Below, in pieces: positions 7,492 through 50,631 of a stretch of DNA of 51,905 nucleotides. The first letter of the stretch is position 1; each line of letters starts with the position of its first letter. The notes beneath the pieces were generated by a model. That model worked only from the letters and a program-made list of their open reading frames with translations, was not told where the DNA came from and searched no databases. Source of the DNA: a virus; IMG/VR virus record IMGVR_UViG_3300025127_000057, positions 1 to 51,905 of that record; one strand, written 5' to 3'. Made by a program: the position numbers and the translations under genes.

Positions 7492-7815
7492 ATGAAAACA
7501 CAATCCGACTTCATCATGTTCGTTCGTCAACACCGCACAGGACGAAAATGGTCTCTGGCTGAGCTGGCTCGATGCGCCAACCTGACACAACCTGAAGTCA
7601 GTCGACTTGAATCAGGTATTCGGTTGCCGACCTTACGGCATGTCAAAGGAATCGCTGAGGCGTTTCACGCTACGCAGAAAGGTGAACTTTCTTGGGGCTA
7701 CCCTGACTGGTTGGCCAAGTTGGTGGACCTTGCAGAGCAAGCCCGTAAAGACGCAAGAAGCGGTCCAGGGCGATGGGCCAAGCGAGAGACCGAAGAGTCT
7801 CCCGACTGCCGTTAG
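7492..7815 (+). CDS. XRE-family helix-turn-helix regulator
   Basis: 107 residues. The helix-turn-helix spans about residues 18-52 (WSLAELARCANLTQPEVSRL), with the QPEVSRLESG recognition-helix pattern of the XRE/Cro family. I chose ATG 7492 because GAGG sits five bases upstream; a longer in-frame TTG start at 7429 would fall inside the promoter. The C-terminal third is basic and unstructured-looking. It is the only plus-strand gene in the left 37 kb, reads away from the helicase promoter, and its end overlaps the stop of the convergent metallophosphoesterase gene by four bases. It probably represses or times the divergent early promoters; no lysogeny genes are seen. Confidence 0.85.
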   Translation: MKTQSDFIMFVRQHRTGRKWSLAELARCANLTQPEVSRLESGIRLPTLRHVKGIAEAFHATQKGELSWGYPDWLAKLVDLAEQARKDARSGPGRWAKRETEESPDCR

Positions 7816-41520: not shown

Positions 41521-41942
41521 TGGTCGAATACAATGAAATGATGGACTCGATGCGCCGCAACGCGCAGAAAGCCGACTCGTGCCCCGCAGCAACGCAAGAC
41601 GTCGAACTCAACTTGAAGAACCGGCAGAACGCGCTCGACACGAAAGAGTACGGACCTGCCAACCCTGCCCTCGATGATGAAGGTGGCAACGAGGAGTTTT
41701 GGCAACGGTACGCTGATCGGTTCAATGACACCATCGAGAATGTCATGACAATGCGTTGCGGAAACTGCAGTTTCTTTGACGTATCGGAAAGTATGAAAGA
41801 ATGCATTGAAATCGGAATCGGGCCTGAGGGTGACCCCGAAGCGGCGGTGGACGCCGGTGACTTGGGCTACTGTACTGCTCTCGATTTCAAGTGTGCATCC
41901 AAACGTGTCTGCATCATTTGGGCAGGAAGGCAGGTGGCTTGA
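41514..41942 (+). CDS. Cysteine-rich protein, HiPIP-like pattern
   Basis: 142 residues. The first 75 are acidic and helical (NRQNALDTKEY). Cysteines at 82, 85, 97, 120, 127 and 133 are arranged as CGNC-SFF ... C ... GYCTAL ... C ... CIIW, close to the C-x2-C ... C ... C-x-x-W order of high-potential iron-sulfur-type domains. A metal or Fe-S centre is likely. It is tightly joined to both neighbours (seven-base overlap before, one-base overlap after). The role in the virion or in infection is unknown. Confidence 0.6.
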   Translation: MVVVEYNEMMDSMRRNAQKADSCPAATQDVELNLKNRQNALDTKEYGPANPALDDEGGNEEFWQRYADRFNDTIENVMTMRCGNCSFFDVSESMKECIEIGIGPEGDPEAAVDAGDLGYCTALDFKCASKRVCIIWAGRQVA

Positions 41943-42163
41943 TGGCGAAGAAGAAAAAACTGAGCGCAAAGACCATGGAAACGCTACGTAAGAAGGCAGA
42001 GAAGTCAGGTATCTCTTTGCGTAAACTTGTTGCAGTGTACCGTCGTGGGCAAGGTGCTTACTTGTCTTCGGGCTCCCGCAATGTACCCATGGCCGCTTGG
42101 GCAATGGGTCGCGTCAACAGTTTCATTCGTGGTTCAAGGAAGCACGACAAGGACTTGCGATAG
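41942..42163 (+). CDS. Small conserved basic protein (GAYxSSGSRNVPMxAW type)
   Basis: 73 residues from ATG 41942, which overlaps the previous stop; the longer frame begins inside the preceding gene. The second half, GISLRKLVAVYRRGQGAYLS and AMGRVNSFIRGSRKHDKDLR, resembles a small domain of unknown function (DUF5824-like, from memory) that occurs in phage and giant-virus proteins. Charged ends suggest nucleic acid binding. Function unknown. Confidence 0.65.
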   Translation: MAKKKKLSAKTMETLRKKAEKSGISLRKLVAVYRRGQGAYLSSGSRNVPMAAWAMGRVNSFIRGSRKHDKDLR

Positions 42164-47372: not shown

Positions 47373-47963
47373 TTACAGCGTCCAACCGTGTGGAATCATG
47401 TGACCTGGGCCGTACGGAGTCGCTTGCAACAGCAGTGTTTTGCCGTTCGCATCGGTACCGTCGTAGATGTCCAAGTCTTGGAAGTCTTCTTTGCAGGACC
47501 AGTAGAACGTGATGATCTCGTCGCCAGCTCGCCCCCAGTACCGGTGCCATCCGTTGCGAGTGTAGTAGTCGTGCAGCAATGCTTGCGTGTCGGGGAGCGT
47601 TTCGTTCTTGCCCCAACGGCGCCAACCTTCCGGTGTTCGGATGGTTCCGTCCACGTTGCGCGGAACTTCGGCCTCTAAGGGCTCGCTAATGGCCTTAGGA
47701 GCGCTTTCGGCGCTGGCCGCGGGTTCGGGTGGCGCGGTGAGAGCAGGCGACGGCATAGCGCAATCTTGCGCGTTTTGCATCAGGTCCAATCCACGCAGCA
47801 GCGCAATGCGCGCTACGGTCTCTCGGGTGACCTTGATTCCAAACTCTTTGACGGCAATAGTGTCTTCGATTGCAGGTATCAGCTGGTCAATGCTCTTGAG
47901 CACTTGCGGTTCAAGGTCCAGGCTTACACCCTTGGGTGCGGCTTTCGTCGTTTTGCTTGGCAT
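47373..47963 (-). CDS. Hypothetical protein with ribbon-helix-helix-like N-terminus
   Basis: 196 residues from ATG 47963, with GGAG five bases upstream. Residues 20-70 (PQVLKSIDQLIPAIEDTIAVKEFGIKVTRETVARIALLRGL) look like a small dimerising DNA-binding helix pair; a Pro/Ala-rich linker follows (about 72-105); then a WRRWGKN- and WHRYWGR-containing C-terminal domain. It is the first gene leftward from the palindrome-rich region, a natural place for a regulator of that region. Its function is inferred. Confidence 0.5.
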   Translation of the reverse strand: MPSKTTKAAPKGVSLDLEPQVLKSIDQLIPAIEDTIAVKEFGIKVTRETVARIALLRGLDLMQNAQDCAMPSPALTAPPEPAASAESAPKAISEPLEAEVPRNVDGTIRTPEGWRRWGKNETLPDTQALLHDYYTRNGWHRYWGRAGDEIITFYWSCKEDFQDLDIYDGTDANGKTLLLQATPYGPGHMIPHGWTL

Positions 47964-48229
47964 GGGTTCTCCGTCGATGCCGTCAGGGTAACATGCGCGA
48001 ATGAGATGGCAAAGCCATACCGTTATGGTACTATTCAATCGGAAAAAGTTTTTGAAAAAGGGAACGCCTTTCGGTATTGGGACCCTAAACTATTTTTGTT
48101 GGGGTGTACCCCCCTCTTGCCATGTCAACACTTCAACACCCAGCGCACCCCCCACAGGCTCCCGGGGGCGATCCGGGTGGAATCGATCGACTGGCGGACC
48201 CACCACCGCCGCGGTGGGCGGAGGTTTAT

Positions 48230-48448
48230 CTACCGGTGAGTAGGTAACCAGGCGCGGCCGGGGGGATCGGAACGCGGGCGGATCGGATTCGACTTACCTA
48301 CTCGTCAGTAGGTTTTGAGATAGCGGTTACCTACCCGTGGGTAGATTGCGGTGGGCGGATCGCGCGGGCGGACCCTGTTTATCTACTCGTGGGTAGGCAG
48401 CTGAATCTACTCGCCAGTAGGTTTTCAGCTGAATCTACTCGGGGGTAG
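48230..48448 (+). repeat. Array of six CTAC-N6-GTAG palindromes
   Basis: Copies start at 48230, 48298, 48331, 48383, 48407 and 48435, all 14 bases long, with a core CTAC(T/C)(C/G)G-N3-GTAG. The last two sit in a 28-base period with a 16-base direct repeat (CAGCTGAATCTACTCG at 48398 and 48426). Each copy continues with GT or AT after GTAG. This suggests iterated binding sites for one protein. Confidence 0.8.
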
Positions 48449-48572
48449 ATTACGGCCGAAAGTCTTGACATGCCCATAGCGTTTAATCGCCCGTAAAGGG
48501 GCCTATACCGCTTCGGTATTGCTCGGGGCTATCATTACACTCGGGAGCGCTCAGAACGCAGCCTGCGGAAAT

Positions 48573-48659
48573 CGGACATTTTTTGTCCGCCTTGTTTTGT
48601 AAATGTCAAAAAAATGTCAAGAGACGAACCGTGACGGCAGAGGGCCTACCGCTATGGTA
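48573..48659 (+). promoter_or_regulatory. Control segment before the first rightward accessory gene
   Basis: In order: CGGACA-N5-TGTCCG palindrome (48573-48589), two TGTCAA motifs five bases apart (48604-48609 and 48615-48620), a weak promoter (GTGACG at 48631-48636, 16 bases, TATGGT at 48653-48658) and the palindrome TACCGCTATGGTA (48647-48659) that overlaps the -10. The palindromes likely serve as operators. Confidence 0.5.
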
Positions 48660-48712
48660 GAAACGAAGTGTTCGGCGCTGGATGCCGGGCACCAACCACA
48701 GGAGCAAAACAA

Positions 48713-49099
48713 ATGACACGTCCGCAAATCGACATCATCATTTCGATCCCCACCAACACCCTGCGCTGTCAGGCGCTTCAGACCGTGCTCTCGCACCACG
48801 CGGCTAACGGCTTCGACCGTACCGACCTCCAGACTGCTGTGAAGTCTGTGCGTCGCGCAGTCACCGTGGCAGCAAGCACCATCATTCCAGCAGAGCAGGA
48901 GCGGTCTCAAGTGGGCAGCGGTGACCGCACGCTTGGAACGGCTACCCTCATCATCACCGAGGATGGTATGCCTATCGGCTCTGCTCACATCAAGGGAGAT
49001 AACACCGTCGTGGTCTCTGGCGAGGTCGCTAACGTCTGGAACGGCCTTAAGGCTGCACAGGACCTGCGGTGGAACACTGAGGAGTGGGGGAGGCGATAA
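48713..49099 (+). CDS. Hypothetical protein
   Basis: 128 residues from ATG 48713; GGAG is eight bases upstream within the leader CACCAACCACAGGAGCAAA shared with other genes to the right. The sequence is alpha/beta (IDIIISIPTNTLRCQALQTVL, GTATLIITEDGMPIG). No motif was recognised. It is the first gene rightward of the palindrome region, so probably expressed early. Confidence 0.55.
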   Translation: MTRPQIDIIISIPTNTLRCQALQTVLSHHAANGFDRTDLQTAVKSVRRAVTVAASTIIPAEQERSQVGSGDRTLGTATLIITEDGMPIGSAHIKGDNTVVVSGEVANVWNGLKAAQDLRWNTEEWGRR

Positions 49100-50431: not shown

Positions 50432-50631
50432 TACGGGTCCGGGGTCCGGGTGCCGGTCCGGTTCGCGCGCGACGGCATCCCGCCAAACCCAGGGCGGGGT
50501 GCCGGTCTTGACGCGTCAACACGAGGTCCGCACCGCTTGACATTTCCTTGACAGTTAGGACTGTCGTAAAACCTACCGATGCGGTAGACTGAATCAACCA
50601 ACCAACCAACCAACCAACGGAGCAAAAAACT
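50432..50631 (+). promoter_or_regulatory. Control region before the conserved cysteine-rich gene
   Basis: Two TTGACA motifs (50537-50542 and 50548-50553), five bases apart; a GACAGT-N4-ACTGTC palindrome (50550-50565) overlapping the second; and the palindrome CTACCG-ATG-CGGTAG (50573-50587). No -10 at a normal distance from either TTGACA is convincing. The leader with a (CAAC)6 run follows. No gene is seen in this stretch. Confidence 0.5.
50595..50618 (+). repeat. (CAAC)6 microsatellite before a start codon
   Basis: Six uninterrupted CAAC units run into GGAG of the ribosome site of the next gene. Tetranucleotide runs of this length can gain or lose units, and the position 13 bases before ATG means a length change would alter the leader rather than the frame. 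Confidence 0.85.

Follow-up and report, generated by a model that had tools for sequence, protein, structure and literature searches.

A 51,905-base linear virus record, referred to here as the window, carries an array of six CTAC-N6-GTAG palindromes in a non-coding gap between divergent genes. The array was found once in this genome and recurs, patchily, in relatives sharing its large terminase. It probably consists of six operators, each bound by a symmetric protein dimer, which would modulate early transcription in a divergent control region specific to the lineage; the binding of a dimer and the transcriptional output are what we infer from the features described below. No end repeats were found in the 51,905-base record.

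Six palindromes of one type in a single array

The first-pass annotation had reported six palindromes at 48230-48448, which was confirmed by the search for exact CTACN6GTAG sites. These start at 48230, 48298, 48331, 48383, 48407 and 48435, the array ending at 48448, against an expectation of 0.21 for the whole 51,905-base window, and none of 100 shuffles reached six. When the 749-bp gap alone was subjected to 500 dinucleotide shuffles, the mean was 0.008 sites and the maximum was 1. The motif search across the genome proposed in the annotation detected no seventh copy anywhere else in the 51.9-kb window, the density outside the array being zero. An unbiased scan of the 51.9 kb for clusters of at least four gapped 4+4 palindromes with any half-site also detected the CTAC array as the sole cluster. 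The sites in their extended form are as follows.

48228-48245, no strand: palindrome 1, core CTACCGGTGAGTAG; position matched in the relative L006 (1769) and also by the single CTAA-N6-TTAG site of L120/L121
48296-48313, no strand: palindrome 2, core CTACTCGTCAGTAG
48329-48346, no strand: palindrome 3, core CTACCCGTGGGTAG
48381-48398, no strand: palindrome 4, core CTACTCGTGGGTAG
48405-48422, no strand: palindrome 5, core CTACTCGCCAGTAG, within the 28-base tandem
48433-48450, no strand: palindrome 6, core CTACTCGGGGGTAG, within the 28-base tandem

The 28-base tandem (48389-48416 and 48417-48444), which covers two CTAC sites, and the 16-base direct repeat CAGCTGAATCTACTCG inside it were both present in the sequence as annotated.

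Alignment of the six window sites with five sites of L006 showed that the true unit is approximately 18 bp, AYCTACY-N4-RGTAGRT, with A at -2, Y at -1, CTACY, about four free bases, RGTAG, R and T, often lying within TTAT...ATAA. The G at position 7 of the 14-mer held in the window but not in the relatives, and the conserved bases run beyond it to about 18 bp. The flanks (A at -2, Y at -1 and their mirror) were not imposed by the first search, and recur in L019, L021, L024, L027, L031 and L034. The separation of the half-sites was constant at six bases, whereas the distances between sites in the window (68, 33, 52, 24 and 28) were irregular, as expected for independent dimers.

Each core, as read from the sequence, could also fold into a 4-5-bp stem with a 4-6-nt loop, and the array might thus act at the RNA level, its palindromes folding as small hairpins within the leader of a transcript. 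However, the 5/10 position is Y..R with a C-A combination in 15 of 40 sites, the sixth position is able to pair in only 11 of 40, and the compensatory pairing of an RNA stem was therefore not seen. The 4-bp stems are weak, and tRNA and Rfam searches gave no match. We disfavor this explanation as highly improbable. The Y/R positions lacking consistent base pairing fit a protein reading each half-site rather than an RNA stem. Replication iterons and RNA hairpins fit less well than independent dimer-binding operators, because the half-site spacing is fixed, the site spacing is irregular, and the degeneracy is of the purine/pyrimidine type. One dimer of a helix-turn-helix-type or similar protein would occupy each palindrome of about 18 bp, its two recognition elements reading the CTAC half-sites one helical turn apart. 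Bound side by side, such dimers would build up a nucleoprotein patch within the control region, by which the amount or the timing of early transcription to the left and to the right would be set.

The divergent control region and the question of an origin

The gap between 47963 and 48713 was non-coding in the gene picks, in agreement with the annotated position of the array between divergent genes. The repeated dyad with fixed half-site spacing lies in a regulatory gap, as is expected of a dimer-operator array. The features of this region are given below.

47373-47963, minus strand: 195-aa protein of the left operon with a ribbon-helix-helix (RHH)-like N-terminus and a conserved C-terminal domain
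47964-48712, no strand: divergent non-coding control region holding the array, 749 bp between the gene starts at 47963 (minus) and 48713 (plus)
48018-48030, no strand: operator-like TACC-N5-GGTA palindrome TACCGTTATGGTA upstream of the 47373-47963 gene, with counterparts upstream of most homologues
48095-48133, no strand: GGGGTGTACCCC plus ATGTCAA element; similar GGGGTACCCC plus TTGAC in the gaps of L006, L120, L121 (first part), G004 and G011
48466-48518, no strand: conserved block TTGACA..TTTAATCGCCCG..AAGGGGCC..TACCG..CGGTA, adjoining the array
48506-48518, no strand: TACC-N5-GGTA palindrome TACCGCTTCGGTA, mid-gap
48647-48659, no strand: TACC-N5-GGTA palindrome TACCGCTATGGTA upstream of the 48713 gene
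48713-49099, plus strand: first gene of the rightward operon, function unassigned

The TACC-N5-GGTA palindrome occurs in only four copies in the window (48018-48030, 48506-48518, 48647-48659 and 50574-50586), three of which are 45-60 bp ahead of start codons (47963 minus, 48713 plus and 50632 plus). The promoter-proximal copies flanking the array are each about 200 bp away from it, and no match to a sigma-70-like promoter was detected inside or beside the array; simple promoter occlusion is consequently not visible. The TTGACA..TTTAATCGCCCG..AAGGGGCC block was also found at L007:1565-1622 and L006:1568-1625, and its orientation with respect to the RHH-like gene in the window and L006 is opposite to that in L007, L120 and L121. 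A hairpin-like palindrome CGGACATTTTTTGTCCG, terminator-like by its pattern, is located at 48573-48589 and is kept in L006 as CCGGACATTTTTTGTCCG. No similarity of the gap to cultured phages was found.

The first-pass annotation had placed the array near AT-rich DNA. AT-rich stretches do exist at 48000-48100 and 48576-48615, one on each side and among the most AT-rich of the contig, but they are about 130-200 bp from the array, which itself has a GC content of 59%. Alternatively, each palindrome might be the binding site of an initiator dimer in a phage replication origin, where the neighboring AT-rich stretch would be melted. Lambda O iterons are imperfect palindromes adjoining an AT-rich stretch. 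In the window, G001, G004 and G011, the gap indeed includes 40-100-bp windows that rank with the most AT-rich of the contig, and in G008 genes for a DnaB-like helicase and a RuvC-like protein are present in the operon neighboring the array. On the other hand, there is overlap between these AT-rich windows and promoter regions, and in G005 and G009 the windows are weak. The inter-site distances lack the regular spacing of iterons and are not helically phased in all relatives. The GC skew around 48 kb, a check proposed together with the origin, tracked transcription and had no turning point there. The array is also missing from close relatives that must likewise replicate. An origin is rather unlikely, and of the two functions that had been offered, iterons or a repressor-binding cluster, a multi-operator cluster for a dimeric protein is better supported, the iterons being weakened by the irregular spacing, the skew without a turn and the many relatives lacking the array.

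Recurrence and patchiness among relatives

Pattern scans of IMG/VR identified further arrays, and ten of the contigs found by the motif share the large terminase of the window (L006, L019, L021, L027, L031, L034, L154, L156, L157 and L158). The arrays of these terminase-sharing contigs have 2-7 copies, mostly with the same flanks and mostly in a divergent non-coding gap. Arrays in gaps of this kind were seen in L006, L021, L027, L034, G005 (L023) and G009 (L031). Among the 29 contigs with the core motif, at least two A/T-flanked sites were present in 8 of 10 with the shared terminase versus 2 of 19 without it (Fisher p = 4e-4, only indicative owing to kinship among the contigs).

L006, in which the neighboring protein is 74% identical, retains five sites in the homologous gap at distances of 28, 33, 47 and 22, while the spacers have diverged beyond alignment. 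The sites were likewise conserved above the spacers in G004, G008, G009 and G011, with varying copy number and spacing, and the distances in a further array were 15, 24, 45, 30, 28 and 82. The 28-base tandem, which spans two sites, would speak for the array being an ordinary local duplication without function. This very improbable explanation is refuted by the pattern of conservation, provided that the relatives are truly related, as the sites survive in L006 while the spacers diverge and arrays recur in distant terminase relatives.

The gaps of G004 and G011 contain the GGGGTACCCC/TTGAC element as in the window, together with a second palindrome family on GAAC...GTTC. Five CTGAAC-N4-GTTCAG-like palindromes (GAACN4GTTC) were observed at L137:6756-6937 (IMGVR 3300030118_004641), in the gap of a CTAC array and nowhere else in that contig; they resemble LexA boxes of the Gram-positive type, and G004, a sister phage of L137, has GAACACTGTTCGG three times.

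L120 and L121, with terminases 73-74% identical to that of the window, have one palindrome TTTATCTAAYGGYCGTTAGGCTGA (CTAA-N6-TTAG) nearest the RHH-like gene. No cluster was found in the whole contig of L170, whose terminase is 70% identical, or in the whole contigs of 28 other relatives by the terminase, the RHH-like protein or phrog_2554, and the terminase relatives L165-L244 had no array in the stretches retrieved. The first-pass annotation had let its reading depend on conservation of copy number and spacing in relatives; the array does recur, but copy number and spacing vary and its presence is patchy. The array is thus recurrent but optional in the lineage, which speaks against an indispensable origin, and the 28 relatives without it indicate that it is not essential to the lineage.

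Candidate readers and comparison with known systems

The annotation had named the 47373-47963 protein and an XRE protein as candidates for binding the array, and neither was supported. The N-terminus of the former follows a pattern of strand, helix and G-x-x-V-T-R-x-x-V-A-R-x-A-L helix, and is by this pattern predicted to be ribbon-helix-helix-like. AlphaFold models gave a helix-helix N-terminus with moderate confidence, and Pfam, PDB sequence and PDB fold searches yielded no informative match. Many phages lacking the array have a member of its family, and the searches of the array-bearing G002, G004, G008, G009 and G011 yielded no homologue; the protein was therefore rejected as a general reader for lack of co-occurrence. 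Most of its homologues keep the TACC-N5-GGTA palindrome upstream of the start codon, and this palindrome may be the operator of the protein, a likelier site than CTAC if it is autoregulating. The XRE protein is encoded by a Cro/C1-type (HTH_3, E = 3e-8) gene at 7492-7815 on the plus strand, isolated among minus-strand genes. It was rejected as a general reader, as the recognition helices are unlike among array-bearing phages: TQPEVSR in the window (G000), SQQSISY in G008 and SLQTIHR in G004.

No TetR domain above the cut-off was detected in any array-bearing phage; a TetR reader was rejected, the weak matches being sub-threshold and that in G004 lying in a small-terminase-like HTH protein. The half-sites resemble the Thermotoga DnaA box AAACCTACCACC given in PMC4285127. 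Their arrangement in fixed inverted pairs speaks against DnaA, which was also rejected. No reader gene common to the array-bearing phages was found, many of the contigs being fragments, and a literature search for a protein known to read the CTAC-N6-GTAG site found none. Two small proteins were observed in passing. One, beside the array in G009/G002 (L143:17748-17993 and L146:6256-6504, both minus strand), has an NrdR-like zinc-ribbon pattern by eye and no Pfam match. The other, conserved at 41861-42160 (plus) in the window and G001:8987-9214 (minus), has a weak RHH_1 match and lies downstream of portal genes.

The sites might instead be read by a host-encoded regulator, recruited independently by several phages, an explanation that overlaps with the operator reading. 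The same extended site is present in phages of 36-55% GC with terminases about 18-27% identical, and in L024 without that terminase, and no shared phage regulator was found. In addition, similar palindromes occur in chromosomal pairs next to TetR-type genes of Enhygromyxa, Plesiocystis and a planctomycete, which shows that a site of this kind can serve as the operator of a dimer without naming the reader of the phage array. Most carriers, however, belong to one phage lineage, and the chromosomal pairs, picked up with the core pattern, may be TetR operators that have no relation to the array. We consider a host reader possible but doubtful. It is a still more tentative idea that the array is an exchangeable operator module, gained and lost as a unit, its reader being a regulator of the host or else one of the phages, so far undescribed and of fixed specificity; one 18-bp code would then be found across terminases down to 18% identical while close relatives are without it. 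If one protein does read the same site in such different phages, this would demonstrate either that a host regulator has been recruited or that a control module is exchanged among lytic-looking phages. With the 18-bp signature, the early control region can be searched for in a little-known lineage of uncultivated phages, and the array offers a clear probe for fishing out its binding protein.

As for known systems, the core and dyad match TetR operators of the form CTACTC-N2-GAGTAG, such pairs lying beside a TetR gene in L057, L092 and L108, while the phage copies are more numerous and have an AT-rich flank, with no TetR domain above the cut-off in the array phages. The CTACTC-N2-GAGTAG-like pairs or triplets at L057:813-1569, L092:7080-7841 and L108:1715-2370 are directly beside TetR-family genes, and in L057 an alkane-monooxygenase-like gene is next to the palindromes.

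Lambda O iterons are alike in consisting of several imperfect palindromes near AT-rich DNA. They are regularly spaced and inside the initiator gene, whereas the sites of the array lie between genes at irregular distances and are optional in the lineage. Operators of the 434 type are ACAA-N6-TTGT, 14 bp with 4-bp half-sites 6 bp apart, and lambdoid operators are clustered in the divergent early control region. The array shares with these the 4+6+4 geometry, the several copies and the divergent early control region. It differs in having six copies rather than three, located about 200 bp from the promoter-proximal palindromes, with no adjacent repressor gene and no lysogeny gene identified; nor do the XRE proteins of the three phages compared above have a recognition helix in common, as those of phages sharing a 434/XRE operator would.

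The closest published case found is that of Cluster O mycobacteriophages such as Corndog, with a 17-bp palindrome TGTTCGG-N3-CCGAACA in 34 copies genome-wide, partly in genes (PMC4351075). Both are short, near-invariant phage repeats of unassigned function that are thought to bind a dimer. The half-site and spacer differ, and here six copies are gathered in one dense array in one divergent gap. We place it by kind among the phage operator arrays, as a member of no named family.
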